Source of the DNA: an uncultured Verrucomicrobiota bacterium
GTDB taxonomy: Bacteria > Verrucomicrobiota > Kiritimatiellia > RFP12 > UBA1067
DNA: 39,392 bases
Assembly: GCA_945834475.1 (NCBI GenBank)
Contig: CAMAHK010000012.1
Location: 1 to 39,392 of the forward strand
Reading direction: 5' to 3'
Within the stretch, counting starts at the first letter, position 1, and every line of letters starts with the position of its first letter. Shown in pieces: positions 8,870 through 33,587 of the stretch. Both the position numbers and the translations under genes were made by a program. Below the pieces are notes generated by a model, which saw nothing but the letters and a program-made list of their open reading frames with translations, made no database searches and was not told the DNA's origin.

Positions 8870-8917
8870 AGTATATCAAAGACGTTCACCAAAGCGATAT
8901 CACACAAAGGTATGAGA
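8870..8917 (-). promoter_or_regulatory. GH31 promoter: inverted-repeat operator plus -10
   Basis: TCTCATACCTTTGTGTGATATCGC then TATACT (8870..8875); core GTGAT is 28 bp upstream of -10; SD-led 5'UTR. Confidence 0.6.
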
Positions 8918-14170: not shown

Positions 14171-14187
14171 CCTGTTATTGTAAACCA

Positions 14188-17100
14188 TTACTGAACTATC
14201 ACTATCAGTCCACCGCGCCGCGCGATAGTTATGCTTTTGCCGTCAGCGGACTTTACGGACCGAAGGGGCAGCCCCTCCGGATCGGACACCGCCGATGCGA
14301 ATGCGCCCGTGATTCCCTCTGTCGCGCTCGCCACGACGACGGGGTTCAGCCCGACCAGCTTCTTCGCGTTCTTCACGACAATCTTCGCGTTCTTGCCGAT
14401 CACAAGAGCGCCGTCAACAGCAAGCGGAGCGATCATTCCGTCGTCGTTGACAGTGACGACCAAGGCGTCCGTAATTGTCGCTGCGCCGTTCGACAGCGTT
14501 CCGCCGCCATACACCTTCGCAAACTCGACCGGCCTTCCGTTAAGATTGAGCGACGCACCGCTTTCAAGCCTCAGCGATTCAGGGATCGTGGAGACTGAAT
14601 CGGACGAGAACCACTTCTGCTGCAGATAGTCGCGCATTGTCGCAAGCTCGCCTTCCGCAAGCGCCTTGTCGAACACGAACGCTTCGGCGATGAATCCGGA
14701 CGAAGAGCTACTGTAGAACTTTCTGTAGCCGAGGTATATCTTGTTGTCGGTCCTTTCGCTCGCAGCGGAAATCGTCTCGGACGCGGACGTTCCAAGATTG
14801 CCTGTGTCGGAATCCCAGCAATGCGCCTGCACTAGCATGTCCTTAATGCCCATATCCCAAATCTGCCAGCGCTCGTTGTTGGAATGACTGCTCGCCGTGA
14901 TCGATCCCTTTCCGAGTTCTCTGAATTTGGCTGTCTCGATCCCTTCGTCCCAGTAGCTCAGGCGCCATCCCCAGTAGCAGTCTTCAATGCGGAACCCATT
15001 GTTGTCATCGGTTGTGCTTTCGATTCCGAGCGGCATCATCTCGTTATAATACTCGACCGTCTCCGCCCCGCTTTCGTCGTATTTGTGGAACGTGTTGCAC
15101 TGATGGCGCGAGACGACCATAATCGTCTTGTCGGCGGAGCTTGCGATTCCCGTCTCGTCCTTCGATGCGAAACCGTAGGCGTTCGTGAAGGCAATGACAG
15201 GCAGCCCGTTCAGGCTCCACTTCGCCGGATCGTACGACGGCTGGCGCGACTGACCCGGCTCTGCAAGAGCGAGGTCGAGATCGACGCTCGAGGAACCCTT
15301 GTTGTCGATTCCGTTCACGGTGCCGTCATCCGCAACCGTCAGCGACGCACGGTCCGACGCGTCGTACCAGCCGACAGCGGACTTCGCGATGACAGGAGCC
15401 GCGGCGAAGCCGGCAAGCGTCGCTGCGCCGGAGACGGAGAGAATCGTCTCTGCGGAATTGAACTCGCCGAGTTTCTCAAGCCTGCCTTCGTATGGTACTG
15501 TCACGACAGTGGAAGCAGTAGGCAGGACATCGTAAAGAAGAACACCGTCCTTATTGCGCGTCTCCCAGTTTGCGGCATTGGCGACATCACCATCACCAGA
15601 TTCGTTCGTCCAGACCGCCGAAACAGGAGTCGTGTCTGCGGCGATGACGATGATCGTTCCGTTCTGCTCGGAATATGTGCCGGCCTCCTTCTCAATGCCA
15701 CCAACCTTGTATGCCAGGACATGGACCGTCTGTTCGTTCAAGTCGAGCGACGCACCGTTCGCGACGGATATCTCCTTCAGCGGAGTCGTGGCCGTGGAGG
15801 CGATCGTTCCAGTTATCTTCAGCGTCCCCTGTTCCACGACGAATCCACGCCTAAGATCGACAGAACCTGTCAGTTTGCCTGTTCCTGATCCGATCTTTCT
15901 GAAGAAGCCGGAGCCGGCAAGCGCCGAAGCGATTTTGCTCTCTTTGCTCTTCTCTGAACAGCTGGAGGTGTCAAGGACCGCGCCACGTGCGAGGACGTTC
16001 ACGGTAAGCCCTTCGGAAGCATCAAAGCAGTCACTCTCATTTCCGTTGGGTTTGTAAGTGCCTCCGTTCCAGTTGAAGGTGGACGGACCTCTCACGCTGT
16101 GGATCTTGCCGACGTTCAGCACGCCTCCGTTAAAGTTAACGACGCCGCCATGCTCGGAAGAACTGCCCTCCTCGCGGTTGAAGTCGAGCCACCACGTGCA
16201 GGAGACAGTTCCTCCGTCGATTGTCAAAGTTCCGAAGCCCTTGTTGCCGACGTAGATGTCATTGCCGGCCTGAAGCGTGCCGGACACGACATGCACAACA
16301 CCTGTGGCAGAGGACTCCTGGGCGATATGGAGATTACCGGACGATATGAACGAGCTGTCTTTTCCCTCGACCGTTACGGTCGCGAATCCAGACGCCCCTA
16401 CAGTGAAGCGGGATTTGCTCGTGAGTTTTCCGCCGTTTTTGATTTCGATCTTCGAATTGCCTTGCCCCCACTGCGACATATTGGATTCGCCGAGATTCAA
16501 CTCCATCTCAGCTCCAGCTCCGTCGATCGTCAGTCCGTTGTACTTGCCGCCATTCGACGCGCAATTGCCCATGATGAGCTTGCCTGCAGACACCTTTCCA
16601 CCAGTGACCTTCATAATGCAGTTGCGGTTGTCCGCATATCCCGCACCTATAGACAGTTCATCGATGACATCGAGCGAACCGCCCGTCATGTTGAAAACTG
16701 CACCAAGGTCGCTTGCAGCATTCTCGACAAAATCTCCAAAATCATTCAGCGTGACGCCGTATCCAACCCTAAACTTCTTGGCCGCAAACGACTCGCCGAC
16801 AGAGAGCGCGGCTGGCGTCTCGCTGTTTATCGCGAAAAAGTCGCAGTGTGTTGGATAGCCGCCTGTAAACGTCGGGAACCACGCAGCTCCATCGGTAATG
16901 GACTTTCCGCTCTCCGTCGCATTCCACAGACGCTTCGTCTCGTCAACGAATATCGCCTCCGAGCATACGAGCTCGGTCTCCACCCAGTCGGCGTGATCCC
17001 AGCCGTTATCTCCATTCGGATCGACTACGAGGTCTATTTTCTGGATTCCGGCCAGATTGATTGTCTCGCTGCTGTCGCTTGTTTGCGTAAGAGAAACCGC

Positions 17101-17493
17101 ATCTGTTCCGCCGTACACAACACCAGTGGACGCAATTTCGGTGTTGCTGTCGAGGTTGACGACCTTGAAAATCACCCCGTTTGAGCGCGGGGTGCCATTT
17201 TCAAGCTGCTCGTCGTCAAGACCGCCCTTCGCCTTGAAGCTAACGCCCTTGCCGTTCAACCTGATGACATAATGACTCTCGGCATGAGTGCCGACGCCTT
17301 TTTCGTATCCCACCCCGTTTATCGTCAGTGGCTTGCCATCCGTCGACTGGTTCTTATTGACAGCGTTGCTGCCCTTCGTCATCGTGGAAAGGTCGAGATC
17401 CTCCAGACGATAGGTGACGTTTTCCGCCGCTGCGCACTGCGAAAGCAGGGCGACGGCGGACGCGAGAGTAACCGACATGAGCACATTCTTCAT
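14188..17493 (-). CDS. Large secreted protein: NPCBM-like N-terminus, beta-helix-type repeats, LamG-like module
   Basis: Signal peptide MKNVLMSVTLASAVALLSQCAAA; N-terminus 'INGVGYEKGVGTHAESHYVIRLNGKGVSFKAKGGLDDEQ...KIDLVVDPNGDNGWDHADWVE' resembles NPCBM (PF08305). Then 'GGxVxxGxLxVG'-type repeats, 'VWTNESGDGDVANAANWE', 'VGWYDASDRASLTV...IAEAFVFDKALAEGELATMRDYLQQKWF', ending ARRGGLIVIVQ*. Confidence 0.7.
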   Translation of the reverse strand: MKNVLMSVTLASAVALLSQCAAAENVTYRLEDLDLSTMTKGSNAVNKNQSTDGKPLTINGVGYEKGVGTHAESHYVIRLNGKGVSFKAKGGLDDEQLENGTPRSNGVIFKVVNLDSNTEIASTGVVYGGTDAVSLTQTSDSSETINLAGIQKIDLVVDPNGDNGWDHADWVETELVCSEAIFVDETKRLWNATESGKSITDGAAWFPTFTGGYPTHCDFFAINSETPAALSVGESFAAKKFRVGYGVTLNDFGDFVENAASDLGAVFNMTGGSLDVIDELSIGAGYADNRNCIMKVTGGKVSAGKLIMGNCASNGGKYNGLTIDGAGAEMELNLGESNMSQWGQGNSKIEIKNGGKLTSKSRFTVGASGFATVTVEGKDSSFISSGNLHIAQESSATGVVHVVSGTLQAGNDIYVGNKGFGTLTIDGGTVSCTWWLDFNREEGSSSEHGGVVNFNGGVLNVGKIHSVRGPSTFNWNGGTYKPNGNESDCFDASEGLTVNVLARGAVLDTSSCSEKSKESKIASALAGSGFFRKIGSGTGKLTGSVDLRRGFVVEQGTLKITGTIASTATTPLKEISVANGASLDLNEQTVHVLAYKVGGIEKEAGTYSEQNGTIIVIAADTTPVSAVWTNESGDGDVANAANWETRNKDGVLLYDVLPTASTVVTVPYEGRLEKLGEFNSAETILSVSGAATLAGFAAAPVIAKSAVGWYDASDRASLTVADDGTVNGIDNKGSSSVDLDLALAEPGQSRQPSYDPAKWSLNGLPVIAFTNAYGFASKDETGIASSADKTIMVVSRHQCNTFHKYDESGAETVEYYNEMMPLGIESTTDDNNGFRIEDCYWGWRLSYWDEGIETAKFRELGKGSITASSHSNNERWQIWDMGIKDMLVQAHCWDSDTGNLGTSASETISAASERTDNKIYLGYRKFYSSSSSGFIAEAFVFDKALAEGELATMRDYLQQKWFSSDSVSTIPESLRLESGASLNLNGRPVEFAKVYGGGTLSNGAATITDALVVTVNDDGMIAPLAVDGALVIGKNAKIVVKNAKKLVGLNPVVVASATEGITGAFASAVSDPEGLPLRSVKSADGKSITIARRGGLIVIVQ

Positions 17494-17520
17494 TGTGGCG
17501 TTCCTTTCGTATGCGGCTCT

Positions 17521-17571
17521 ATCATACCATTTTGCCCAGAGAAAGGAATATCACTCAAAGGTGTGACATTC
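17521..17571 (-). promoter_or_regulatory. Promoter of the 1101-aa protein: inverted-repeat operator plus -10
   Basis: GAATGTCACACCTTTGAGTGATATTC (17546..17571), the most symmetric copy, then TATGAT (17521..17526); core GTGAT is 28 bp upstream of -10. Confidence 0.65.
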
Positions 17572-17601
17572 TCCGCCGTTGACATCCGCTCCGGAAAATT
17601 G

Positions 17602-17613
17602 TAATCTAATGCT
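17602..17613 (+). promoter_or_regulatory. Candidate -10 of histidine kinase 1, predicted leaderless
   Basis: TAATCT at 17602..17607, then 6 nt, then ATG at 17614; no Shine-Dalgarno. Confidence 0.4.
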
Positions 17614-19677
17614 ATGCAAGCTACCGCCCTTTTGATTGCGGCCCTCTCGCTTACGGACGTCGCGCGTATGTCGCGCGACGAGGCGGAGTTCGGACGCGAA
17701 GTGGTCGCGACCGGTGTCGTCACGGTAGCCACGGAATGGCGCACCAACTCGGGCGTCGCAGCAGACCCGGAAAACCCCAACGGACGCGGCGTCTACTTCC
17801 TCGGCGAGACGCAGATGCTGACAAGTTCGCGCCTCGAAGGCTCAGACAGGTTGAAGCAAGGCGATGTCGTGGAGATCCGAGGCAGGACAGCTTGCCTCTC
17901 CTTCGCCCCCGGAATCAAGGCCGACGTCATCAGCAAGATAGGCGAGGCCTCTCTTCCCCCGGCCCCTCACACACGCCTGGCCGACCTCGGATGGGGAGCG
18001 ATGGACAACACCCGCGTGACACTCCGCGGCGTACTCGTGAAATCCGTAGTAGCTCCACGCAGAGTCGGGGAGACGGAGTCCGGAACGGCACTCCTCCTCA
18101 ACACGCCCGACGGACGCTTCGTCGCCAGAGTCCCCGGCGGACCCGACCACTGGACGCATGCTGTCGACGCCGAGCTTGAGATATCGGGATGCGCCATGAG
18201 CCTCTTCAACCTCCGCGCAGAGTTCCTCGGGGTGAGGCTTGAGGTTGGCGATGCCTCGGACATAAAGGTGGCGAAAAAAGCCCCTTCGTCGCTCTTCGAC
18301 ATCCCTGAGACCAAACTTTCCAAAATCCTCTCGTACTCGCCGACTCCGTACGACGGACACGCCAAGAAGGTTCGCGGAACGGTCACGTTCGTTGCGTCTG
18401 ATGACGTGTTCTTCATGCAGGACGGGGGACGCGGAATCAAGGTGGCGTGCAGCGGAAAGCACGAGGCCAAGGTCGGCGACGCCGTAGAGGTAGCCGGCTT
18501 CCCTGTTTCCATCGGCGGCTTCGGGGAACTGCACGGAGCCGTATGCAGAACAACAGGAAGGAACACACTGCCCGAGCCGGTGGATGTAAAGATGGCGCAT
18601 TACAGCCTCTGGCCGGTAGGTCGTTTCGACGGAGGACTCAAGGACTTCGGCTGGCGCCGCGTGCGCTTCACCGCGCGCGTCATCTCCGCCACGCCCGCGC
18701 ACGGCGGATTCGACCTGCTGCTTTCGGACGACGACAGAACCTGCCCCGCGTTTCTGCGCGGAGAGCTGCCGGACTCGTTCAGCAACGCCAAGGAGATGAT
18801 GCCGCTTGCAAACATAACGGCCGTCGCCGAGATATCCCTTGCGGAATCGACCCCGCTCGCGCGCATGCCCGAAGTCAGCGCTGTCAGATTTAACATCTGC
18901 GATCCGAAAGACATCGCGTTCGTCAGCGATCCGGAATGGCAGTCGAGGCGCAGGGAATCGCTCTTGTCCGACCTCCTCACGATCCTCAGCGTCGCCGCGC
19001 TCGCGCTCGCCGCGATTGTCGTCTCCCGTCTCGTCGTCTCCAACAGGCGCAGAGGCAGGCTCGAGGCCGTCGCGGCGGAACGCAAGCGGATGGCAAGCGA
19101 CCTGCACGACTCCATCGAGCAGAACCTCACCGCGGCGCGGATGCTCATGCGCACCTCTCTCAGGCTGTCGCCGGAAACACCCCCATGCGTGGCCGAGTCC
19201 GTCGAAAGCGCCGCCGAAATACTCGACCGCGCCAAAGCCGAGATAAGAGAGACAATATTCAACCTCCGCTCGGACGACAATTTCGACAAGGACGCGAAGA
19301 CTGTCTTCGCCGAATTCGCGAAACGGCTTTCCGCCCACGGGCTCTTCAGGGTGCGCAACATGCTGCGCGGCATTCCGGCGCGCATTCCTGCGCAACTCCT
19401 CACAACGATACTGCATCTTATCGAGGAGGCGCACACGAACGCCGTCAAGCACGGCGGCGCCAGGAACTTCATCCTCGTCGCAGATCCGGTTCCCGGCGGC
19501 TTCACCATTCGGCTGCTCAACGACGGCGAACCGTTCGACGCGACGTCCGCGCCCGGTCCGGAATCTGGCCACTACGGGCTCGTTGGCATGCGAGAGCGCG
19601 CAAAGCGCGCTGGCGTACGGATATTCTGGGAAACGCGCAAGCGCTGGAATGTTTTTAGAATCGAGGTGAAGACATGA
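17614..19677 (+). CDS. Membrane sensor histidine kinase (HisKA_3/HATPase_c) with OB-fold-like extracytoplasmic region
   Basis: TM segment 'LLTILSVAALALAAIVVSRLVV'; 'ERKRMASDLHDSIEQNLTAARMLM' phosphoacceptor; HATPase 'IEEAHTNAVKHGGA', 'GHYGLVGMRERAKRAG'. N-terminal repeats 'GRGVYFLGETQMLTSS' and 'DVFFMQDGGRGIKVACSGKHEAKVGDAVEVAGF' look OB-fold-like. Confidence 0.85.
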   Translation: MQATALLIAALSLTDVARMSRDEAEFGREVVATGVVTVATEWRTNSGVAADPENPNGRGVYFLGETQMLTSSRLEGSDRLKQGDVVEIRGRTACLSFAPGIKADVISKIGEASLPPAPHTRLADLGWGAMDNTRVTLRGVLVKSVVAPRRVGETESGTALLLNTPDGRFVARVPGGPDHWTHAVDAELEISGCAMSLFNLRAEFLGVRLEVGDASDIKVAKKAPSSLFDIPETKLSKILSYSPTPYDGHAKKVRGTVTFVASDDVFFMQDGGRGIKVACSGKHEAKVGDAVEVAGFPVSIGGFGELHGAVCRTTGRNTLPEPVDVKMAHYSLWPVGRFDGGLKDFGWRRVRFTARVISATPAHGGFDLLLSDDDRTCPAFLRGELPDSFSNAKEMMPLANITAVAEISLAESTPLARMPEVSAVRFNICDPKDIAFVSDPEWQSRRRESLLSDLLTILSVAALALAAIVVSRLVVSNRRRGRLEAVAAERKRMASDLHDSIEQNLTAARMLMRTSLRLSPETPPCVAESVESAAEILDRAKAEIRETIFNLRSDDNFDKDAKTVFAEFAKRLSAHGLFRVRNMLRGIPARIPAQLLTTILHLIEEAHTNAVKHGGARNFILVADPVPGGFTIRLLNDGEPFDATSAPGPESGHYGLVGMRERAKRAGVRIFWETRKRWNVFRIEVKT

Positions 19678-20288
19678 TAAGACTCGTCATTGCCGACGAC
19701 CACGCGGTCGTGAGGATGGGACTAAGGTTCGTCCTGAAGATCAACCCAGACATCGAAGTCGTCGCCGAGGCGGCTGATGGAGACGAGGCCATGAAGGCCG
19801 TGCGCGAGCACAATCCAGACATTCTCCTTCTTGACATACGAATGCCTGGACGCGACGGACTCTCCGCGCTTGACGAGATTCTCGCCGCTTTCCCGAAGCT
19901 CAAGGTGCTGATGCTCTCGACATCCGATGCTGAGGAGGACATCTTCCGCTCAATCGAGGCCGGAGCGCGCGGCTACGTCGTGAAGGACAACCGTCCGGAA
20001 ATCATCGTCGACGCCGTCAACAAGGTGGCAGCCGGAGAGACGTACATGACGGACCGGGTGCGGAGAATCTACGAAATGCGCAAGACTCTCCCCGACCTCA
20101 CGACGCGCGAACTGGAGCTCCTGCGCCTCACGGTGCGCGGACTCACCAACAAGGACATATCGGCGGTTCTCGAGATCAGCGTGGACACCGTCAAGGCGCA
20201 CCTTCGGCACGTCTTCGCGAAGATGGACGTCGCAACGCGTGCCGAGGCGGTCGCGGAGGCGATCCGCCGAGGCCTCGCCTCAAGCTGA
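19674..20288 (+). CDS. LuxR/NarL-family response regulator
   Basis: Receiver 'IADDHAVVRMGL...DILLLDIRMPGRDGL...VVKDN' plus HTH 'LTTRELELLRLTVRGLTNKDISAVLEISVDTVKAHLRHVFAKMDV'. ATGA overlap with the kinase stop. Confidence 0.95.
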   Translation: MIRLVIADDHAVVRMGLRFVLKINPDIEVVAEAADGDEAMKAVREHNPDILLLDIRMPGRDGLSALDEILAAFPKLKVLMLSTSDAEEDIFRSIEAGARGYVVKDNRPEIIVDAVNKVAAGETYMTDRVRRIYEMRKTLPDLTTRELELLRLTVRGLTNKDISAVLEISVDTVKAHLRHVFAKMDVATRAEAVAEAIRRGLASS

Positions 20289-20345
20289 CAGCCTCCAGAA
20301 CAGCCTCGGCACAATCGCCCAAATGCCAGGTGAAGAGGAGCGTCG

Positions 20346-22484
20346 TCACCGAACGCCGCGCAAAATGCCCAGGGCGCGGCCCTGCCAGGCCTTGCGCGTC
20401 CGCGAGGGCGCCGGCACGTTGTCCGTCAGGTCGCCCGAGCAGGTCGCAATCGCCTTCTCGCCGAAGTCAATCTCGCGGTCTGCGTAGGGACACACCGTCC
20501 CGTTCTTGTCGACGACCTCGGCCGTCACCCAGGTGAGGCGTCCGATCGTCTCGCGGGAGTAGCGGACGTGATCCGGTTCGCCGGCGGTCCTGAGTTCCGC
20601 GCGGTCAAGGACCGTGCCGTCCACCGCCAGGCCCTCCGCAACGAGCGTGCCGGGCGCGTAGGCGAGCTCGAAGGACGTGAGATACGCGTTCGCCGCGCCG
20701 TTCTCCTTCTCCGCGACGGTCTTGCCGTTCAGCGTGAGACGGACGCGCGTCGCGCGGGAATAGACTTCGGCGACGACAGGCTTCCCCTCCCAGCCGGCGA
20801 AGGTCCAGTGGTCGTGCGTCGGCCAGACGCTCCACGACGTCGTCTTGATCTTCCCCTTCCAGCCGTCTGGCTCGCGCACGGCGAGATACGTCGGGGCCTT
20901 CGCATTCCACAGCGTCTCGCGGTAATGGGAGACGGGCTTGCGCGTGCCGACCAGGTCGATGTCGCCGCAGTACGCGCCGTGCCACGGGAATTGTGGAACG
21001 TTGTGATAGTGTTCGCCCCACTTCTCGCGGTCCGTGTAGAAGTTGCGTCCAATGCCCGTCTCGCCGAGGTAGTCGATGCCCGTCCAGACGAACTCGCCGA
21101 TCACGTACGGATGCTTCAGGATGCGCTTCCAGACCATCGCCGCGTCCTTCGGATACGTCTCGGTGTAGACGATGACGCGCTCCGGAAGCCGCGCGTGATC
21201 GCTCTCGGTCAAGTACTCAAGATAGTTGTAGCCCACGACGTCGAGCGCGGCGGCCATGGCGTCCTGATCTTCCCACTTTTCACCCCAGAGGCACAGCGCC
21301 TGCGTGACGGGACGCGTCCCGTCGAGACGGTCGATCAGCTCGTGCATCTGCCGCGTCGTCTCGGCCGCAAACGGCTCGTTGCGCTCGAGGATCTCGTTGC
21401 CGACGGACCACATCACGACGCTGGGATGGACGCGGTCACGGCAGACGATCCACGAGACGTCCTTCCGCCAGTCTTCCTTGAAAATCTCGCAGTAGTCGCC
21501 CCGCGTCTTCGCGCGTTCGCGTCCGTCGAACATGTCGTCCATCACCAGAAGCCCGATCTCGTCGCACGCCGTCAGGAACTCCTCGCTCACGGGATTGTGG
21601 CTAGTTCGGACGGCATTGAAGCCCGCGCGCTTGAGCTGCAGCGCCTTGCGGCGCTCGGCCTCGGGATAGCTTGCCGCGCCGAGGGGACCGTGGTCGTGAT
21701 GGACGCACGCGCCGTGGATCTCGACCGGCTTGCCGTTGAGAAGGAAGCCGTCCTTCGCGTTGACCTCGACCGTGCGGATACCGAAACGGACCGTCTCACC
21801 GTAGAACTCCTCCGTGTAAAGGTGCGGCGTCTCGGGCGTCCAGAGCTTCGGATTCGGATACTTGCACGAACGCGCGACGACATGCGCCGCGCCCCCGGCC
21901 GTGTTCGTCACCGCCGCCGTGAACTGCACCGTCGCAAACTCGGGCGTGACCGTCTGCGTCCGAATGTCGAGCGACTCGGGGATCACGTATTCGCCCGAAC
22001 GCTTCTCGAGCCAGACGGACCGGACGATGCCGCTGCCCATGTACCAGCGGCTCGCCGGTGCCACGGACGCATCGATCGAGACAACAATCGTATTCTCCCC
22101 CGCCCGGACCTTGCCCCGGAGCGGCACGCGGAACCCGGTGTAGCCGTAGCGGCTCCCCTGCACCGGTTCGCCGCCGTTGACGGAAACCTTCGCCGCGCGC
22201 AGCACGCCGTCGAAAACAAGCTCGAGTTCCTTCGCGAGGTCTTCCTCCGTCAGGACGAACCGCTTCTCGTACGTCGCCTTCCCGGACGGATAGAACCCCC
22301 ACTCCTTGCCGTTCGGTGCGCCGTCCTTCGGAGCCGCCTCGATCGACCAGTCATGCGGCACGCTGACGGTACGGACCGCCTCTCCTTCGCGTGAGAAGCA
22401 CCAGTCGGCGTCGAGGTTGATGCGTTCGGTCGCGCCGCAGGCGAACACGAGGCCAATCAAGGTCAAGCAGATGGTCTGTCTCAT
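20346..22484 (-). CDS. Secreted GH2-family beta-galactosidase-like enzyme
   Basis: ORF 20346..22946; true start MRQTICLTLIGLVFACGATERINLDADWCFS at 22484 with SD-like AAAGGA. 'VSVPHDWSIE', 'GACVHHDHGPLGAASYPEAERRKALQLKRAGFNAVRTSHNPVS', 'VVMWSVGNEI', 'IGEFVWTGIDYLGE'. Confidence 0.93.
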   Translation of the reverse strand: MRQTICLTLIGLVFACGATERINLDADWCFSREGEAVRTVSVPHDWSIEAAPKDGAPNGKEWGFYPSGKATYEKRFVLTEEDLAKELELVFDGVLRAAKVSVNGGEPVQGSRYGYTGFRVPLRGKVRAGENTIVVSIDASVAPASRWYMGSGIVRSVWLEKRSGEYVIPESLDIRTQTVTPEFATVQFTAAVTNTAGGAAHVVARSCKYPNPKLWTPETPHLYTEEFYGETVRFGIRTVEVNAKDGFLLNGKPVEIHGACVHHDHGPLGAASYPEAERRKALQLKRAGFNAVRTSHNPVSEEFLTACDEIGLLVMDDMFDGRERAKTRGDYCEIFKEDWRKDVSWIVCRDRVHPSVVMWSVGNEILERNEPFAAETTRQMHELIDRLDGTRPVTQALCLWGEKWEDQDAMAAALDVVGYNYLEYLTESDHARLPERVIVYTETYPKDAAMVWKRILKHPYVIGEFVWTGIDYLGETGIGRNFYTDREKWGEHYHNVPQFPWHGAYCGDIDLVGTRKPVSHYRETLWNAKAPTYLAVREPDGWKGKIKTTSWSVWPTHDHWTFAGWEGKPVVAEVYSRATRVRLTLNGKTVAEKENGAANAYLTSFELAYAPGTLVAEGLAVDGTVLDRAELRTAGEPDHVRYSRETIGRLTWVTAEVVDKNGTVCPYADREIDFGEKAIATCSGDLTDNVPAPSRTRKAWQGRALGILRGVR

Positions 22485-22504
22485 AACGATTCCTTTTACA
22501 AAAA

Positions 22505-22551
22505 ATTCTAACAAAACAACCTTCGGGCAGGCAATCACCCATATGGCTGGT
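22505..22551 (-). promoter_or_regulatory. GH2 promoter: inverted-repeat operator plus -10
   Basis: ACCAGCCATATGGGTGATTG (22532..22551) then TAGAAT (22505..22510); core GTGAT is 28 bp upstream of -10; SD-led. Confidence 0.6.
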
Positions 22552-22561
22552 CCCGGGCGGT

Positions 22562-25312
22562 TCACTTCGCGACGACGAAAGGCCCGATCGTGGCGGCGAC
22601 GAAACCGCCCGCGTGATCGGTCGAGAGGATCGAGGCGTCCTGGACACCGCCGAGGGGCTGCCAGTCCGCGCCGGCTTCGGTATAGAAGAACGACACGTCC
22701 TTGCCACGGGAGACGAAGCGCACCTTGAGCTCGCCCGGCTGCGTCAGCGCGGACTCCGCGACCGTCTCGCGCTTGCCCTTGTCCGTCTTCAGCAACACGA
22801 CGGACGCCCGGCCGTTGCGGAGTGTCTTCGCAATCTCGTAGTGGCAGGTCTCGTTCTGATAATAGGTGAGGCCCGCGAGCTCGCGCTCGGACTTCGGCTC
22901 GAACGCGACTGCGATTTCGGCCGTGAAGTCCTTGTTGCGGACCCACCGGCAGAGATACGCGGGCGTACCCGTGCTGTCGAGGTCGTCGTCCGTCGCTTCA
23001 AGGCGCAGTCCGTCGCCCGTCGTCGCGAACGTCGCGGGACGGCGCAGACCGAACCAGCCGTAGTCGAGCGCGGAAGTCGTGAAATCGTCCGTGTAGACGA
23101 CGTTGCCGGCGAGGGGAATCGGAGGGTTGGTCTTGGTACAAGCGGCGGGGACGCCGCTTCCCCTGTTTTTCATCCAGTCCGTCTTGGCGACGACTCGGGG
23201 GACGACCTTACCCTGGTCGAGGATGACGGGCTGACGGTCGGCGCCCTCGCCGATCCACTTCACGGGCAGGAGGAAGGTGCTGCGTCCCGTATTGCACATG
23301 TCACGATTCCCCTTCTTGTAGGGGTCGATCGCGAGGAAGACCGCCATCCAGTCGCCGCCCGGCGTCTGGAAGAGATCCGCGTGTCCCGCGGCCGTAATGG
23401 GCTCGGGACGGTCGCCCGGCAGATCACGCTGGGTCAGGATCGGATTCACCTTGCATGGCTTGTACGGACCCTCCACCGCATCCGACGACCACATCACCTC
23501 GGAATGCCACCCCGCCGTGCCGCCTTCTGCAGTCATCACGTAGTAGCGTCCGTCGATCTTGTAGAGATGCGGTCCCTCGCACCAGATCGGCTTCTCCTCG
23601 GGACGGATCCCCTTGTTGATGATGATGCGCTCGGTGCCCGGCACGCATTCGTCCTTCATGAGGTCGTACTTGCGCATGCGGACTGTGCGGTGCCCCGGAT
23701 ACTCGGCCTTGCCGTCCGGTGCGTCGTCGTTGTTGAGGATCCAGGCGGTCTTGTCATCCCCGAAGAAGAAGCTCGGGTCGATGCCGCCGACCGGCACCTT
23801 GATCGGCTCGCTCCAGCCCCGGTACGGATCCTTCGACTTGTAGACGACGTTGCCGCGGTCGCCAATCACCGTGACGATGAGGTAGAACGTGTCGTTGTAC
23901 GGATTGTACTTGATGTCCGGCGCAAAGACGCCGGCGGAGAGGCCGAGCCCCTTGTTGAACCGGAGCTTCGAGACCGTGTCGCCGACATAGCCGCAGAAGT
24001 CCCAGTCGACGAGGTTTTTCGAGTGATAGACCGGAATGCCCGGATAGTAGCTGAACGAGCTGTTCGCCAGGTAGAAGTCGTCACACTTGCGCGTAATCGA
24101 CGGATCGGGCGCCATGCCGACCATAATCGGGTTGCGGTACTCCGTCGCGGGATCGCACGGCGGAAGCTTCTCCTCGCCGCGGCAGGAGAATCCGCGGAAG
24201 GTCGCGACGGGCGGACGCTCCGTCACTGTGCGGAGAACGGCCTCGTAGCAGGGCTTCGGCGCGAGGCGGCGGTCGAAGAGGAGCGGATAGTCGGTGCGCC
24301 CACGCACCGGGAATCCGTTGAGCCAGCTGTCGCGGTCCGACACACCCCAGAACGTGACGCGGTCGATGATGTCGCGGTGCTTCAGGTACATGCGGAAAAG
24401 CGCCGCGTAGCGACGGGCGAGCTCCTGCTGCTTCTCGTCCGGCAGCACGCCGTCCCGCCACGGATCGAACTTCGCCGCATACGCGCGGTTCGCTGAAATC
24501 TCGGCCGTATGGCCCCAAGCGCTCGGCAGGACGCTCACGTCAAGCTCGGTGATCATCGCCTTCACGCCGGCCTCGCCGAGCGCAACGATCGTCGCCTCGT
24601 AGTCCGCGACCGCCGGACTCGACACGTGCGCGTGGCTCTGAAGGCCGACCGCGTCGATGCGTACGCCCTTCGCCTTCAGGTCGCGGACCAGACGCACGAC
24701 GCCCTTGCGCTTGCCGAACGTGAACATGTTGAAGTCGTTGTAATAGAGCTCGGCGTCAGGATCGGCCTCATGCGCGAAGCGGAACGCCAGCTCGATGAAA
24801 TCGTCGCCGATACCGTCCTTCCAGGGAGACGGATGCAGGTTACCGCGGTCGTCGAAGGCCTCGTTGACGACATCCCAGCCGTGGACGCGTCCCTTGTAGC
24901 GTCCGACCACGGCATGGATGTGCTTGCGCATCCTGTCGATCAGCTGCTCGCGCGTCGCCTTCGATCCATCCGGATTCGTGAAGAACCAGTCGGGCGTCTG
25001 ACTGTGCCAGACGAGGCAGTGTCCGATGATCTTCATGCCGTGACGCTCGCCGTAGGCGACGAACTTGTCCGCCGTCTCCCACCGGAACTCGCCTTCGCGC
25101 GGCTGAAGGTACATCGGCTTCATCTCGTTCTCGGCGGTAATGGACGAGAACTCGCGCGCGACGAGCTTTCCGACCGGCGATTCGCCGTGGACATACGCCC
25201 TTGCGTTGATGGCCGCACCGACCTTGAACGCAGGGGCAAACGCCGACCGAAGCGTCTCGGCAAAGGTCAGCAAGGGCAGAAGGGAAAGGAGTACGAGGGT
25301 CTGTATTTTCAT
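22562..25312 (-). CDS. Secreted GH10 endo-xylanase / GH43 fusion
   Basis: GH10 motifs 'SSITAENEMKPMYLQP', 'HCLVWHSQTPDWF', 'GWDVVNEAFDD', 'ITELDVS'; then GH43 'YRNPIMVGMAPDPSITRKCDDFYLANSSFSYYPGIPVYHSKNLVDW', 'WCEGPHLYKIDGRYYVM', plus a C-terminal sandwich. Confidence 0.95.
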   Translation of the reverse strand: MKIQTLVLLSLLPLLTFAETLRSAFAPAFKVGAAINARAYVHGESPVGKLVAREFSSITAENEMKPMYLQPREGEFRWETADKFVAYGERHGMKIIGHCLVWHSQTPDWFFTNPDGSKATREQLIDRMRKHIHAVVGRYKGRVHGWDVVNEAFDDRGNLHPSPWKDGIGDDFIELAFRFAHEADPDAELYYNDFNMFTFGKRKGVVRLVRDLKAKGVRIDAVGLQSHAHVSSPAVADYEATIVALGEAGVKAMITELDVSVLPSAWGHTAEISANRAYAAKFDPWRDGVLPDEKQQELARRYAALFRMYLKHRDIIDRVTFWGVSDRDSWLNGFPVRGRTDYPLLFDRRLAPKPCYEAVLRTVTERPPVATFRGFSCRGEEKLPPCDPATEYRNPIMVGMAPDPSITRKCDDFYLANSSFSYYPGIPVYHSKNLVDWDFCGYVGDTVSKLRFNKGLGLSAGVFAPDIKYNPYNDTFYLIVTVIGDRGNVVYKSKDPYRGWSEPIKVPVGGIDPSFFFGDDKTAWILNNDDAPDGKAEYPGHRTVRMRKYDLMKDECVPGTERIIINKGIRPEEKPIWCEGPHLYKIDGRYYVMTAEGGTAGWHSEVMWSSDAVEGPYKPCKVNPILTQRDLPGDRPEPITAAGHADLFQTPGGDWMAVFLAIDPYKKGNRDMCNTGRSTFLLPVKWIGEGADRQPVILDQGKVVPRVVAKTDWMKNRGSGVPAACTKTNPPIPLAGNVVYTDDFTTSALDYGWFGLRRPATFATTGDGLRLEATDDDLDSTGTPAYLCRWVRNKDFTAEIAVAFEPKSERELAGLTYYQNETCHYEIAKTLRNGRASVVLLKTDKGKRETVAESALTQPGELKVRFVSRGKDVSFFYTEAGADWQPLGGVQDASILSTDHAGGFVAATIGPFVVAK

Positions 25313-25318
25313 ACGTGA

Positions 25319-25368
25319 ATTCTACCATATTCCCCTTCGGAACGGCGATTACCCGAAGTGGTTACGCC
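25319..25368 (-). promoter_or_regulatory. GH10-GH43 promoter: inverted-repeat operator plus -10
   Basis: GGCGTAACCACTTCGGGTAATCGCC (25344..25368) then TAGAAT (25319..25324), 6 nt (TCACGT), ATG. Core GTAAT is 28 bp upstream of -10. Confidence 0.6.
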
Positions 25369-25378
25369 TAGCCGGTGC

Positions 25379-27055
25379 TCACTTCAGCTGCCAGCAGTCG
25401 AGGACCGGTTCCTCGTGTCCCTCCGTCGAGAACACGAAGGCGTCGACGTCGACCCACCCGCCGAGGGATTTCGTCGCATACGCAAAAAGGCCGAACTTCG
25501 TTCCCATGAAGAAGCGCGTGTAGTCGAAGGACAGCGGCACGCGCGAACCGATCGGCCGCCAGGCCTGTCCGTCCGCGCTCCAGTCGAACGTCGCGAAGTC
25601 AGCGCCGGCGGTGAAATCGGCGCTGACCCGCAGCCAGACGGACGTCCCGGCGAACGGCACCGACGAGACGACCGTGCGGTCGGTGCGGGCGATTGTGCGG
25701 TTTGCACCGAAGACGCTTTGCTCGACGGACATCACCAGCCGCGTCTCGCCCCCGTGCCGTTCCACGGCCAGGACGCCGCTGTCGCTTTGAAAGGCCGCTA
25801 GGCCCGCCCGGTCGCCGTCCTGCAGGTGCGAGACGTCGAGCCGCACCGCGCCGCGGCACCGCGGACCGCACATGCGCTGCGTCAGCGTATTGCGGGCGAG
25901 GAAGAGAGTGTCGGTGACCGTCGCCGTCTTGAGGCGCAACCAGCCGGGACGCTCCGCGAGCGACCATTTCGAATCGACGGGATTGTGGTTCCACTGCCAG
26001 GCGAGCGAAAGTCCGGAGTCGGAGAAGTCGTCGGAGCTGATGTATCCCGCGACGCTCGGATAGGGACGGGACGTGTCGTTCGGAATGCGTCCGACGTTGT
26101 TGCGCACGAGACCCTCCTTCTCGTTGACGTCGCCGAGCATCGGCCAGTCGTCGACCCACCGCACGGGCATCGCGCACGGGACGCGTCCGACTCCGCCGCG
26201 GTCCTGGAAGATCATCGCGTACCACTCTCCCTGCCGTTGGACGATGTCGCCCTGGCCGAGTCCGCCCCAGCTTTCGAACGGCACCTCGAGAATCACCTTG
26301 CGCTCGTAGGGTCCGGCCAGGTTCTTCGCACGGTAGCAGACCTCGCGTCGGATGCGCCCCGGCTCGCCCCAGGCCATGGAGATCATGAGCAGGTAATAGT
26401 AATCGCCGCGCTTGACCGCGTGCGAACCCTCCAGGAGCGCCGTCTCCTCGGGCGTGCGCGTCCAGCGCGTGAGATCGACGTTCAGGCCCTGCGGATCGAC
26501 GTCGGAAAGGTCGTCCTTGAGCTGCGCCAGCCGACCCGAACCGTAGAAGACGTAGGCCTTGCCGTCGTCATCGAAGAAGAGACCGCCGTCGTGCATGTAC
26601 GAGGGGCGCGACAGGAGCATCCACGGACCCGTCGCCTTCTCGGCCGTATAGAGATAGCCGCGGGCCCCGTTGCAGACGAACCAGACGTAGAAGCGTCCCT
26701 TGTGCCGGCGGATCGTCGTCGCCCACTGACCCTGTCCGTACGCCGTGCGGTTTCCCGCAAGGTCATAGCGTCCCCAGTCGGAGTCCCCGTCCGGAAAGGC
26801 GCCCGGCTCGAAGCGCGGCAGCACGTAGCTGACCGTCTTCCAGTGCACCATGTCCGTGCTTTCCATGACCGGCACACCCGGCACGAGGTGCATCGTCGTC
26901 GAGACCATGTAATAGTTCGTCCCGTCCGAGCACAGGCTCGGATCGGGAACGTCCGCCCAGAGGACGGGATTGCGCACACCGGGCATCAGGTCGGCACGCA
27001 CGAGACCGACGAGGGACAGGCAGTCGAGGAAAACGGCAAGGATTCTCTTATTCAT
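25379..27055 (-). CDS. Secreted GH43-family enzyme with C-terminal beta-sandwich
   Basis: Start MNKRILAVFLDCLSLVGLVRA at 27055 (ORF to 27079). 'NPVLWADVPDPSLCSDGTNYYMVSTTMHLVPGVPVMESTDMVHW', 'TALLEGSHAVKRGDYYYLL', 'LAWQWNHNPVDSKWSLAERPGWLRLKT'. Confidence 0.93.
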   Translation of the reverse strand: MNKRILAVFLDCLSLVGLVRADLMPGVRNPVLWADVPDPSLCSDGTNYYMVSTTMHLVPGVPVMESTDMVHWKTVSYVLPRFEPGAFPDGDSDWGRYDLAGNRTAYGQGQWATTIRRHKGRFYVWFVCNGARGYLYTAEKATGPWMLLSRPSYMHDGGLFFDDDGKAYVFYGSGRLAQLKDDLSDVDPQGLNVDLTRWTRTPEETALLEGSHAVKRGDYYYLLMISMAWGEPGRIRREVCYRAKNLAGPYERKVILEVPFESWGGLGQGDIVQRQGEWYAMIFQDRGGVGRVPCAMPVRWVDDWPMLGDVNEKEGLVRNNVGRIPNDTSRPYPSVAGYISSDDFSDSGLSLAWQWNHNPVDSKWSLAERPGWLRLKTATVTDTLFLARNTLTQRMCGPRCRGAVRLDVSHLQDGDRAGLAAFQSDSGVLAVERHGGETRLVMSVEQSVFGANRTIARTDRTVVSSVPFAGTSVWLRVSADFTAGADFATFDWSADGQAWRPIGSRVPLSFDYTRFFMGTKFGLFAYATKSLGGWVDVDAFVFSTEGHEEPVLDCWQLK

Positions 27056-27062
27056 AGGCTCC

Positions 27063-27110
27063 ATTCTACCAAACGCCATGCGTCTTTCGCCATTCCCCCA
27101 ATGGGCTAGG
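27063..27110 (-). promoter_or_regulatory. GH43 promoter: inverted-repeat operator plus -10
   Basis: CCTAGCCCATTGGGGGAATG (27091..27110) then TAGAAT (27063..27068), 7 nt (GGAGCCT), ATG. Core GGAAT is 28 bp upstream of -10. Confidence 0.55.
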
Positions 27111-27163
27111 GACAGACGCCCTAGGCAGCCACCGCCCTGCCGCCCGTCATTCGCCCAAACGGA

Positions 27164-27253
27164 TTAGTCGCCGTCTCCGGTGGTCACGTGCGTCACTCGT
27201 CCCTCGAACGGAGAGACGAGTGCCAGCAGAAGCGCTCCCAGAAGCGCAATCAT
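27164..27253 (-). pseudogene. 29-codon secreted-peptide ORF, possible truncated gene remnant
   Basis: MIALLGALLLALVSPFEGRVTHVTTGDGD*: signal-peptide-like start followed by a GRVTHVTxGD segment that faintly resembles staphylococcal-nuclease N-termini, then an in-frame stop. Confidence 0.25.
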
Positions 27254-27262
27254 GCCCGATGC

Positions 27263-30200
27263 TTAGCGGATGAGGACGCAGAACCCCTTGGAGACGACCG
27301 TCCCGCGATAGGCGACGATACGTCCCGCGTCATCGGTCATGGGCAGAATCCTGACCTTGCGATTGGCGTTCTCGCCACCGACAAACGTCGGCGCACGGAC
27401 GATTTCCGCAGCCGTCAGCAACGTGACCTCCGTGTTCAGCGGCTGCGCCAGGAGCGCCGAGAGATCCATCGTCGCACCCTCCGCCAGCGTCAGCGAGCCG
27501 CCGACGACGAGGCCCGCGCCGACCTTTTCCGTGATCGTCACGTCGCCGTTCGCGATCGTGCCGGCGCCCATGATCTTGTCGAACGCCCAGCTGCCGCCGC
27601 CTAAGTCAATTCGCGCACGGTTCTCGAGCGCTATATTTGAAGGAACCGTCGTGCCGTCGAACGGCGTGAACCACTTCGTGTGCAGATATTCCCGCACGGC
27701 GGCAAGCTCTTCATCGCTCAACGCCTTGTCGAACATCATCGCCTCGGCGACCTCGCCCGCGCTCGGAGAATCGTACAGCTGCCGCATGCCGACAAAGAGC
27801 TTCGCCTCTTCCGACGTTCCATTGCTGCCGACGGTGACAGAAGTCGCATTCTCGACCCCACTCGATTCCGTCATGACGGAACCGCTAACCGTCTTTTCCG
27901 CAGACGACATCGCCCAGATTGCATACTCGTCTGGATCAATATTGCGAAGACCCTGAAGCGCTTGCGTCGTCCAATCCGCTCTCTTGACAGTGGAATCGTC
28001 ATAGTCCAGATTGGAGCTTCCTGCCCACTGTCCGAGGCGGAACTCGCCGGACTGCCAGTTTCCGCCGACTTTCTCGATGCCGAGCGGGAACATCTGCTGC
28101 TCATACTCGCCTTCTTTCGGCGTGCCGTCGCCATTGAACGCGGGATACGTATTCCTAATGCGCAGGCTGACGGCGACAAGCGTGCGGTCGGCATCGCCGA
28201 CGATACCCGCCGCATTCTTCGAAACGAAGCCGTACGAGTTCGTGAACGACATGACGTCGCGACCGTAATGCGAGGAAAGACCGTATGCCGGTTTGCGCCT
28301 AGATTCCTCCGGGTAGAAAAGCACCAGGTCAAGCGCATCTTTTGCCGTTCCTTTGTTCGCCACGCCGACAGGAATGCCGCCTTCCATCGTGACGGACGCT
28401 GAATCGTCAAAGTCATACCAGGCCTTCGCCGACTTCACAATCTCCGGCACAGTGCAATCGCCACGAAGCGAGACATCGCTCGTTGCGACTAACGTCACGC
28501 TCCTGACCGTCAAGCCGGACATGTCGGGGCGCACCGCGCTTGATGCGGGAATCGTAACATCTGAATCTGCCGCCGGCATGACACCGTCAAGTTCAGCGGA
28601 AAGGTCCTCCTTTTCAGACCCGTCCTCGAGGAAGTACTTTATGTGAGACCGCCAGTTTGCAGCATTGGCGGCATTACCATCGCCGGAGGCATTCGTCCAG
28701 ACCGAAGAGACAATCTTTTTCGTCACGGGGATGATGGTAGAGCCGTTCAGTTCCAGCGTTGCGCCATCGGCGACTTCCGTGCCCTCGCAATAGATCGTCT
28801 GGTTTTCTGGCAGCACCAGCGTACCTGCCTCGACCTTGATCTTGCCGGTCAGCGCGTAGGTGCCTCTCAGCGTCAGGGTGCCCTGCCCCTTCTTTGTGAT
28901 GCCGCCGTTGCCGCTATACGTTGCACCATCATGATTATGAGTCACGACAGCATGGCCGTCCGTATCGAAGCCAAGCCCGTCGCCTGTGATTACAAGATCT
29001 CCGCAATTCTCGAAATAGTTTTCCGTGTCCGTCTTCGCCTTGAACGTGCCGCCGTTGATGTTGAGAACGGTGGTTGGCTTTTTGCCCGAATACGTCTTGA
29101 CGACGCGCGGGGCGAAAAGCGTTCCGCCATTGACCGTCAGCGTAGTCCTGCGATCTGCGACCATATCATACTCGCCGATGAAAATCGCCTCATCAGCCTC
29201 AAGAAGACCGCCGTTGATGACCGTATCCGCCGAAGTCCATGCGCCGGCAAAGATGATCTGCTTCGCGTACACGGTGCCGTCGTTCATGACAAACTTCGTG
29301 TATGTGTCGGCGTTACCTGTTTCGACATATTCATTCCACTCAGCAGCCGGAATGCCGCCGCCGATGTAGATGTGCTCGACGAGGTTCGATACCGCGCCGC
29401 CGTTGATCTCCACATAGGTTTGCGCGTCATTGCCATGCCCGAAGCTGATTCTGCCGGAATTGTTCACGAGCGCGCCGCCGGCAATGAGCACCTCGGCCTT
29501 CGCGCCTTCGCCGGCACCGACCCTGAGTTCGGCCCCGGATGTCACCGTACCGCCCGTCAGTTCGACAAAGCCGACAGAACCGACGCCCTGACCGACGCGC
29601 AGAGAGCTGCCGACCGAGACCTCGCCGCCCGAGACTTCCAGGAAACCGCCGGACTTGTCAGCGGAGCCGACATCCAACTCACCCCGAACACGCACAATAC
29701 CTCCCGAGACAGCCACGCGGCTCGAGGCCGCGCGAATCTTCTCGGTCAGTTCGCTGAAGCCCACCGAGAGACGTCCGCCGTCCACATTGACCGTACCGCC
29801 CGAGACGAGGACCTCGCCCTTCGCGCCGACATCCTGACGGCCGAGCGTCAGCGAGCCGGTCCAGTCCGCCCCCGTCGTCGTCACGGTACCACCCTCAACC
29901 TTCAGGATGCCATGCGCCGGATCACCCCACGCCGCATTACCCCAGTGTCCGAGCACGAGATTGCCGGCGATAAACGAGCCGTCCTTCAGCGTCACCTCGG
30001 ACGTCCGGTTCAGTTGCCCGGCCACGACCTCGCCGTCGGCGGTGAATGTTCCCCCGTCGATGGTGAGCTTCGCCACGGCGCCATCCGCATCAATGGACAT
30101 GTTACGGACGTGAAACGCCTCGCCTTCACCGAGCACGGCCTCACGCATCGAGGTCGCTTCAACCGAATCGCCCGTCGTCGGCAAGAGGTTCTCGTAGATC

Positions 30201-30442
30201 TTGCCGTCCGGATAGCTTTCCCACTTCAGATCCCACGGATTCGGCACCTCCAGGGCATCGTTCCAGATCTTGTCGGTCATCCAGTTTGCGGGGTCGACAA
30301 GCGACGTCGTCGTTCCCTTCCACATGAAGTGACGCCGACCTTCCGGAACCGTTTCCTCGGCATTCACCTGCGAGAACGTCGCGACACAGGCAGCAGAAAG
30401 TGCAACTGCACAGAATTGAGATGCTTTGCGTGTTTTAACCAT
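27263..30442 (-). CDS. Large secreted beta-repeat protein with LamG-like module
   Basis: Signal peptide-like N-terminus ('FCAVALSAACVATFSQVNAEE'); many 'VxVSGGxVxVxGxLxVG' repeats; 'VSSVWTNASGDGNAANAANW', 'AKAWYDFDDSASVTME...VAEAMMFDKALSDEELAAVREYLHTKWF' parallel the 1101-aa protein; ends VVSKGFCVLIR*. Confidence 0.7.
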   Translation of the reverse strand: MVKTRKASQFCAVALSAACVATFSQVNAEETVPEGRRHFMWKGTTTSLVDPANWMTDKIWNDALEVPNPWDLKWESYPDGKIYENLLPTTGDSVEATSMREAVLGEGEAFHVRNMSIDADGAVAKLTIDGGTFTADGEVVAGQLNRTSEVTLKDGSFIAGNLVLGHWGNAAWGDPAHGILKVEGGTVTTTGADWTGSLTLGRQDVGAKGEVLVSGGTVNVDGGRLSVGFSELTEKIRAASSRVAVSGGIVRVRGELDVGSADKSGGFLEVSGGEVSVGSSLRVGQGVGSVGFVELTGGTVTSGAELRVGAGEGAKAEVLIAGGALVNNSGRISFGHGNDAQTYVEINGGAVSNLVEHIYIGGGIPAAEWNEYVETGNADTYTKFVMNDGTVYAKQIIFAGAWTSADTVINGGLLEADEAIFIGEYDMVADRRTTLTVNGGTLFAPRVVKTYSGKKPTTVLNINGGTFKAKTDTENYFENCGDLVITGDGLGFDTDGHAVVTHNHDGATYSGNGGITKKGQGTLTLRGTYALTGKIKVEAGTLVLPENQTIYCEGTEVADGATLELNGSTIIPVTKKIVSSVWTNASGDGNAANAANWRSHIKYFLEDGSEKEDLSAELDGVMPAADSDVTIPASSAVRPDMSGLTVRSVTLVATSDVSLRGDCTVPEIVKSAKAWYDFDDSASVTMEGGIPVGVANKGTAKDALDLVLFYPEESRRKPAYGLSSHYGRDVMSFTNSYGFVSKNAAGIVGDADRTLVAVSLRIRNTYPAFNGDGTPKEGEYEQQMFPLGIEKVGGNWQSGEFRLGQWAGSSNLDYDDSTVKRADWTTQALQGLRNIDPDEYAIWAMSSAEKTVSGSVMTESSGVENATSVTVGSNGTSEEAKLFVGMRQLYDSPSAGEVAEAMMFDKALSDEELAAVREYLHTKWFTPFDGTTVPSNIALENRARIDLGGGSWAFDKIMGAGTIANGDVTITEKVGAGLVVGGSLTLAEGATMDLSALLAQPLNTEVTLLTAAEIVRAPTFVGGENANRKVRILPMTDDAGRIVAYRGTVVSKGFCVLIR

Positions 30443-30528: not shown

Positions 30529-30672
30529 GGGTCGCATTTTGTGCTATAATCTCGTGCGATGAGAGCGTCACTCCTACTCCTTGCGCTTGCCGCCGCGATC
30601 TCTGCCGGAGCCGTTCCCGAAAATCTGACGGTTTCGGGAACAGTCATCTATTCCCAGGCCTGGAATCTCTTC
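30529..30672 (+). repeat. 144-bp duplication, copy A (histidine kinase promoter and 5' end)
   Basis: Identical to 33444..33587 except 3 mismatches (30555 t/a, 30606 c/t, 30660 c/a); includes tgcTATAAT and the first 38 codons. Confidence 0.95.
30559..30672 (+). pseudogene. Truncated 5' fragment of a histidine kinase gene
   Basis: MRASLLLLALAAAISAGAVPENLTVSGTVIYSQAWNLF is identical to the start of the kinase at 33474; after 30672 the frame (ORF to 30852) continues into unrelated sequence. Confidence 0.9.
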
Positions 30673-30686
30673 ATCCCTCATTCGGG

Positions 30687-30800
30687 TTATATCACGGGAA
30701 CCCCTGCAAGGTCGTTCTTGTCGACGATCGGCGCAGGGTCGGCGGTGAAGGTGTCGGTGAAAAGCGGATTGGCCGCAGCCAGAATCAAGGGAAATAACAT
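30687..30800 (-). pseudogene. N-terminal fragment of a GH43-type gene
   Basis: MLFPLILAAANPLFTDTFTADPAPIVDKNDLAGVPVI*: 'NPLFTDTFTADPAPIV' is typical of the GH43 N-terminal catalytic strand; preceded by GAGGAGG SD; breaks off at a stop. Confidence 0.65.
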
Positions 30801-30818
30801 GTTTCCTCCTCGGTTTGA

Positions 30819-31164
30819 TCAGTCGTGTTCGGTTGCCCGTGTCCGGAAATAGTCGACGGCGACGGAGCCTCCCGGAGTCTTCGTTGCGTAATTGAAGATC
30901 GCGAAACGCGAACCCATGAAGAACTTGCCGGTGTCGAAGCGGAGCGGCACGTGTGGCGAGGGCTTGCTCCAGGTCTTGCCGTCCGTACTGTACGAGACGT
31001 CGAGCTTGACGACGCCCGTGCACTCGGGGCCGACCATGCGCTGCGTGAGCGTGTTGCGCGCCTGGAAGAGATTCGGCGCGAGACCCGGCGTCTTCAGCGT
31101 GAGGAACCCCTTCCGCGCTGTGAGCGACCAGGCCACATCCACGGGATTGTGGTTCCACTGACCC
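30819..31164 (-). pseudogene. C-terminal fragment of a GH43-type gene with internal deletion
   Basis: 'GQWNHNPVDVAWSLTARKGFLTLKTPGLAPNLFQARNTLTQRMVGPECTGVVKLDVS|YSTDGKTWSKPSPHVPLRFDTGKFFMGSRFAIFNYATKTPGGSVAVDYFRTRATEHD*'. No catalytic domain; the segment between KLDVS and YSTDGKTW present in the paralogs is missing. Confidence 0.85.
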
Positions 31165-33443: not shown

Positions 33444-33587
33444 GGGTCGCATTTTGTGCTATAATCTCGAGCGATGAGAGCGTCACTCCTACTCCTTGCG
33501 CTTGCCGCCGCGATCTCTGCTGGAGCCGTTCCCGAAAATCTGACGGTTTCGGGAACAGTCATCTATTCCCAGGCATGGAATCTCTTC
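33444..33587 (+). repeat. 144-bp duplication, copy B (intact histidine kinase 2)
   Basis: See 30529..30672; offset is a constant 2915 bp. Confidence 0.95.

Follow-up and report, generated by a model that had tools for sequence, protein, structure and literature searches.

A recurrent C-terminal tail on two modular, predicted secreted proteins from a hemicellulase cluster of an uncultured Kiritimatiellia bacterium and on many unrelated proteins of the same bacterial family

The signals recognized in the PEP-CTERM/exosortase (Haft 2006, PMC1569441) and GlyGly-CTERM/rhombosortase (PMC3237569) systems are tripartite, consisting of a short motif, a transmembrane helix and a basic cluster. Here we describe a C-terminal tail of a different make on two modular proteins, P1 and P2, that are encoded in a complete contig of 39,392 bases (CAMAHK010000012.1; hereafter, the window) from the 2.57-Mb, ~85% complete genome of an uncultured gut bacterium of the Kiritimatiellia. 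Like the PEP-CTERM and GlyGly-CTERM signals (PMC1569441, PMC3237569), the tail is a short region of homology at the extreme C-terminus of many unrelated, fast-evolving, Sec-exported proteins per genome, and is restricted to a lineage; unlike these signals, it spans only ~7 residues, lacks the helix, the basic cluster and PEP, and is found in the same genomes as classical PEP-CTERM proteins. It resembles the type IX secretion C-terminal domain as a putative signal of the beta-strand type that is carried by diverse cargo, but is much shorter. The proteins themselves share with autotransporters (type Va secretion) and with proteins containing T5SS (type V secretion system)/PEP-CTERM-associated repeats a predicted beta-solenoid stalk with repeats of related types (TIGR04393, PATR), but unlike autotransporters, neither P1 and P2 nor the other tail proteins have a C-terminal beta-barrel domain matched in Pfam or NCBIfam. 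Finally, P1 and P2 are reminiscent of the fibrillar adhesins (PMC9210967), which evolve rapidly and combine a stalk with an adhesive domain, the stalk and the lectin-like tip being predicted in P1 and P2; they differ in that the proposed anchoring signal is not a described one and adhesion is a prediction.

P1 (1101 amino acids; positions 14188..17493 of the window) and P2 (1059 amino acids; 27263..30442), both on the minus strand, as are all of their parts listed below, are predicted to carry a ConA-like (LamG-like) lectin tip on a beta-solenoid stalk, with a conserved linker in between; P1 has an NPCBM domain at its N-terminus in addition. Both end in G-phi-x-phi-x-[I/V]-[R/Q] (phi, hydrophobic residue) that abuts the stop codon, P1 in RRGGLIVIVQ (14191..14220), a proposed sorting or anchoring signal, and P2 in SKGFCVLIR (27266..27292). 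Among 22 relatives found by homology, with such endings as RGGLIVIVQ, SKGFCVLIR, AAGFAIKIR, DSGFAISVR, KKGLMIIVR and PPGFAIMIR, conservation is limited to the last 7 residues, and the entropy jumps upstream of them; glycine is found at position -7 in 18 of these sequences, arginine at position -1 in 17, and an aliphatic residue or phenylalanine at position -2 in all 22. A loose version of the motif terminates 18 of the 22 relatives, compared with 2 of 151 other open reading frames (ORFs), and occurs at 0.9% of internal positions.

Because the regular expression was written after the tails had been seen, the independent test comes from a DNA pattern that was fixed from this first set and then applied to further genomes, with the reversed pattern as the control. 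The host genome contains 15 matches with TRR stops, and 11 of the 15 terminate secreted-looking ORFs. In G013, the pattern matched 22 times against 1 for the control, and almost every match closed a long secreted ORF; in G022, the figures were 16 against 5, with most matches in the same position. Across 58 genomes of the family, there are 493 matches versus 139 for the control (3.5-fold; Wilcoxon p ~1e-9), whereas 14 genomes from other families of the same order show no significant excess (35 versus 30, p=0.23), and the excess outside the order but within the class is small (231 versus 165). The tail is thus concentrated in one bacterial family. Outside the family, it may be sporadic; single genomes from outside the order, such as G176 and G212, have 8 matches against 1 and 6 against 1, respectively. 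Within the genus of the window itself, seven genomes of 1.3-2.6 Mb (G005, G040, G045, G048, G051, G053 and G054) show a tail signal barely above the control and encode hardly any P1-like protein. Genomes with abundant tails include G000, G013, G022 and G034.

The proteins that carry the tail have little else in common. The 200 residues that precede the tail sort 54 tail proteins into 23 unrelated clusters, and the tail is the only part that all of them share. An N-terminal hydrophobic core is present in 42 of 49 tail proteins, compared with 41 of 132 other ORFs. The domains of the carriers include LamG (LamG_3), DUF2341, LRR_5, PKD, CBM35, PA14, F5/8C, glycine-rich regions and choice-of-anchor C, J and Q, with no catalytic families reported among them by the Pfam and NCBIfam scans; the secreted enzymes of the window end without the tail. 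At the lower extreme, an 87-amino acid secreted protein from the host genome (L187:4263-4526, contig C50) has little sequence apart from its signal peptide and a tail, SKPTGFTLNIR; it is flanked by a 652-amino acid ORF and another secreted ORF. Another contig of the same genome (C107) encodes a 782-amino acid tail protein (L188:3242-5590) with choice-of-anchor Q matches and the ending NGMTLLVR. Recurrence at the very end of signal-peptide proteins with unrelated bodies is how PEP-CTERM and GlyGly-CTERM came to be recognized (PMC1569441, PMC3237569), and the tail may be a so far undescribed label that directs proteins to export or to the cell surface.

The tail also stays in place where the modules upstream of it are absent or exchanged. 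L035, a protein of genome G034, occupies the syntenic position of P1 and matches its first half at 80% identity, but the 480-amino acid LamG half is missing in frame, so that the stalk repeats extend right up to the tail and the junction passes directly into ARRGGLMLIFQ-stop; the next gene encodes a glycoside hydrolase (GH) of family GH51 that is 98% identical to its counterpart next to L073, the full-length P1 orthologue of a second genome. Other pairs have exchanged their parts. L069 and L076 have the stalk in common (76-100% identity per 60-amino acid block) and differ in their tips (16-41%), whereas L069 and L072 are dissimilar in the N-terminal blocks (13-43%) and closely similar in the tips (66-96%). 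P2 is 70-88% identical to L072 over amino acids 301-660, with much lower values on both sides. By alignment, the linker lies at or near the boundary of the exchanged stalks and tips.

Of these findings, the tail and the module exchange carry the most weight. Both suggest that P1 and P2 belong to an extensive class of modular surface adhesins and do not form a scaffold dedicated to this cluster. The reading that we prefer, with a probability of about 0.58, is that P1 and P2 are non-catalytic adhesins of modular build that are exported by the Sec pathway, bind glycans and are probably displayed on the cell surface, and that their C-terminal tail serves the whole family for sorting or anchoring. 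This tail (G-phi-x-phi-x-[I/V]-R, directly before the stop codon) would act across, or onto, the outer membrane, and surface display would hold plant cell-wall hemicellulose close to the enzymes of the cluster. Stalks and tips are swapped at the linker with the tail retained, such that binding specificity could change while export persists. For the gut and rumen Kiritimatiellae family as a whole, the odds seem about even that there is an undescribed export or anchoring system that reads a minimal G-phi-x-phi-x-[I/V]-R-COOH signal, is separate from exosortase/PEP-CTERM and displays at least 10 modular adhesins per genome, with lectin tips recombined before a fixed tail. Fibre attachment and surface protein display in the uncultured gut and rumen Kiritimatiellae are little described; in the open-licence literature, we found nothing on point on autotransporters, surface or sorting systems or exosortase of these bacteria, and no paper on this tail. 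A new C-terminal signal would make it possible to predict from sequence which proteins an entire family places on its surface. The contrast between tail-rich and tail-poor genomes in one genus permits a search for the machine by phylogenetic profiling, as for exosortase, and the module swaps provide a natural series for lectin specificity.

Several considerations weigh against this reading. Glycan binding is predicted from the fold, and the surface location of the proteins is likewise a prediction. Among the 22 relatives found by homology, L041, L045, L047 and L048 had been fetched because their match reached the C-terminus of the query, and 15 of 18 match without them; L039, a tail-less protein that matched through the NPCBM domain, was excluded from the homology set as an enzyme; and the pattern-derived set of proteins was selected by the tail itself. 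The tail is short, so that the need for a closing beta strand could explain part of its conservation. With respect to the machinery, no match to SprA, of the type IX secretion system (T9SS), was detected in the 58 genomes, a search in which no control genome gave a match either, and exosortase and the secretin (type II secretion/type IV pilus) are near-universal, tail-poor genomes included, and hence do not discriminate.

The main alternative that involves no sorting at all is that the tail merely caps beta-rich proteins as their closing strand and is selected for folding. The hydrophobic residues of the tail do alternate, the P1 tail is modelled as a strand (amino acids 1096-1100) and the carriers are mostly beta-rich. 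A pure cap, however, would not readily account for the glycine at -7 and the arginine at -1 being fixed in their distance to the stop codon, or for the presence of the tail on LRR, PKD and glycine-rich proteins and on the 87-amino acid protein, or for its retention in L035, where the preceding 480 residues are absent. Furthermore, the tail of P2 is modelled with a predicted local distance difference test score (pLDDT) below 50, and beta-solenoid proteins are widespread whereas the tail is confined mainly to one family. On this evidence, capping as the whole explanation appears rather unlikely.

The tail could also be a beta-signal through which a BamA/TamA-like machine recognizes the protein and, as in autotransporters, docks its C-terminus in the outer membrane or inserts it there. 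Outer-membrane beta-signals resemble polar-x-G-x-x-phi-x-phi, with an aromatic residue usually in the terminal position. The tail is similar in form, and the stalk repeats belong to the T5SS/PEP-CTERM-associated type, but the Pfam and NCBIfam scans detected no beta-barrel domain before the tail, in L035 the stalk repeats run directly into it, and one further residue, mostly arginine, follows the position at which the usual signal stops with an aromatic, all of which makes this explanation quite improbable. Far less probable still is a divergent C-terminal domain of the T9SS. The general design is compatible, in that proteins with signal peptides and unrelated bodies end in a beta-strand signal with a basic last residue; however, at ~7-10 residues the tail is far below the length of that domain, no T9SS tail model appears among the Pfam and NCBIfam matches of P1, P2 or the other tail proteins, and SprA went without a match in all 58 genomes, albeit with no match in any control genome.

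The least likely of the candidate explanations is that the tail is a variant PEP-CTERM processed by exosortase. An exosortase is encoded in 56 of the 58 genomes, but PEP is found in the last 40 residues of none of the 54 tail proteins, and a transmembrane-like 19-mer in the last 30 residues of only one. Moreover, 55 of the 58 genomes already encode classical PEP-CTERM proteins, including G040 and G051 with zero tail matches. Given that exosortase and PEP-CTERM are present even where tails are few or absent, they constitute a system separate from the tail. Neither the T9SS nor exosortase is supported as the tail machinery. The classical PEP-CTERM proteins are mostly encoded in frames of ~160-260 amino acids that are often clustered, and the exosortase gene of the host genome lies near a WecA/MraY-like gene (L184).

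The first-pass annotation of the window, made from the sequence alone, had described P1 and P2 as two giant secreted proteins with a shared architecture. Both ORFs were recovered, and they are homologous over ~800-900 amino acids (29% identity, E=9e-64); ‘giant' holds only in a relative sense, given that relatives reach 1677-2069 amino acids. P1 starts with a signal peptide read off the translation (amino acids 1-23, ending in SQCAAA; 17425..17493), which is followed by the domain annotated as NPCBM-like (amino acids 29-175; 16969..17409). This is a true NPCBM, a clear family member with 99 bits against the curated cut-off of 23.9 (PF08305, E=3e-28), and the sole copy in the host genome. The repeats of the P1 stalk (~amino acids 205-620; 15634..16881), which is homologous to that of P2, match the T5SS/PEP-CTERM-associated repeat TIGR04393 above the cut-off (E=9.6e-6), whereas those of P2 have only sub-threshold PATR/TIGR02601 matches. 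The annotated linker was borne out, being conserved as W-T-N-x-SGDG-x-ANxxNW in 11 sequences; it corresponds to VSAVWTNESGDGDVANAANW in P1 (15565..15630), the boundary of module exchange, and, by alignment, to IVSSVWTNASGDGNAANAANW in P2 (28652..28714).

The LamG-like module proposed for both proteins is weak in sequence comparison, with a sub-threshold match to PF13385 in P2 (13.9 bits versus the cut-off of 27.6, E=0.061) and none in P1, but is favoured by structure prediction, which the same annotation had suggested. An AlphaFold2 model of P1 residues 622-1101, built from an 11-sequence alignment (pLDDT 75), matches ConA-like folds in PDB, among them GH54, legume lectins and ERGIC-53, with E of 1e-6 to 1e-4 for the P1 module (~amino acids 700-962; 14608..15396), and also clostridial neurotoxin binding domains as generic fold mates. 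The TM-scores are low, ~0.3 over the multi-domain query, and the tip of P1 is assigned the ConA-like jelly-roll fold with moderate confidence; the module lies below the PF13385 threshold and forms a subfamily of its own. The remainder of P1 up to the tail is modelled as a C-terminal beta module (amino acids 965-1091; 14221..14601) that recurs in proteins from other genera. In P2, which has no NPCBM domain, the corresponding modules are assigned by homology to the modelled P1 module (~amino acids 668-927; 27662..28441) and by alignment (C-terminal beta module, 27293..27658). The P2 stalk (~amino acids 100-570; 28733..30145) is modelled as a strand ladder, with pLDDT mostly 60-92, and is best called a beta-solenoid; Foldseek found no significant PDB match for this model, the passenger domains of autotransporters (pertactin, Ag43, Hap) ranking high among the non-significant ones, and a sequence search against solved structures gave only chance-level matches.

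P1 leads an operon, as the first-pass annotation had it, followed by the genes for a GH51 arabinofuranosidase (11684..14188, minus strand) and a GH5-GH43 fusion (8918..11653, minus strand), and is divergent from the genes for a two-component system, the HisKA_3 kinase HK1 and the LuxR-type response regulator RR1 (17614..20288, plus strand). This order is kept in the second genome, where L073 is 83% identical to P1 and lies beside the same genes. Between P1 and HK1 lies the operator-like sequence ACCTTTGAGTGATAT (17548..17562, minus strand), one of only two sites with the pattern ACCTTTG[A/T]GTGATAT in the whole 2.57-Mb genome (none with the reversed control), the other of which precedes the GH31-GH95-GH97-GH2 genes (8897..8911, minus strand). 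In the genomes with L073 and L035, the P1/HK1 intergenic region is conserved as a whole, and the operator is not conspicuous there. The operator and the adjacent two-component system had been claimed for both proteins. Only a 2-mismatch, reversed version of the operator, over the ribosome-binding site, precedes P2 and was rejected as weak, so that the shared operator, and with it the predicted co-regulation with the hemicellulases, holds for P1 alone; likewise, P1 adjoins HK1-RR1, but GH127 and debris separate P2 from the second system, HK2-RR2.

These ties between P1 and the hemicellulases are what speaks for the original proposal of polysaccharide-capture or scaffold proteins, in its strong form a cluster-specific replacement of SusD in which the tail is incidental. 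The anatomy does fit a secreted stalk-and-lectin protein, and glycan capture by the ConA-like and NPCBM modules is plausible from the predicted folds; no SusC/D homologue was found among the window proteins scanned with profile libraries, the rest of the genome not having been searched for one. Nevertheless, each genome encodes many proteins with the tail and the architecture, P2 has no operator, P2-like proteins elsewhere have different neighbours, and the window proteins scanned include no TonB-dependent transporter partner. A role specific to this cluster is therefore unlikely, and the tail and the swaps suggest instead the wider class of adhesins.

Next to P2, on its upstream side, lies one copy of a 148-nucleotide direct repeat (30529-30676 and 33444-33591; 97% identical), which duplicates the promoter and the initial codons of HK2. 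An apparent remnant of a GH43 C-terminus (30574-31158) follows this duplicate. The repeat and the remnant look as if they had been left behind by a local duplication or rearrangement, though they may be an artefact of assembly.

Judging by profile scans, the window is a cluster for hemicellulose and plant-fibre degradation, with GH2, GH97, GH95, GH31, GH5-GH43, GH51, GH10-GH43, GH43, GH127, GH43 and GH97 and the two HisKA_3/LuxR-type two-component systems; Rfam and tRNA scans of the window gave no match, nor did PADLOC. The related loci come from metagenome-assembled genomes labelled Kiritimatiellae, Lentisphaerae or Verrucomicrobia, several of which are RUG genomes (rumen, by name). The two bifunctional fusions of the window, GH10-GH43 (22562-25312) and GH5-GH43 (8918-11653), each end in a GH43_C2 ConA-like domain.

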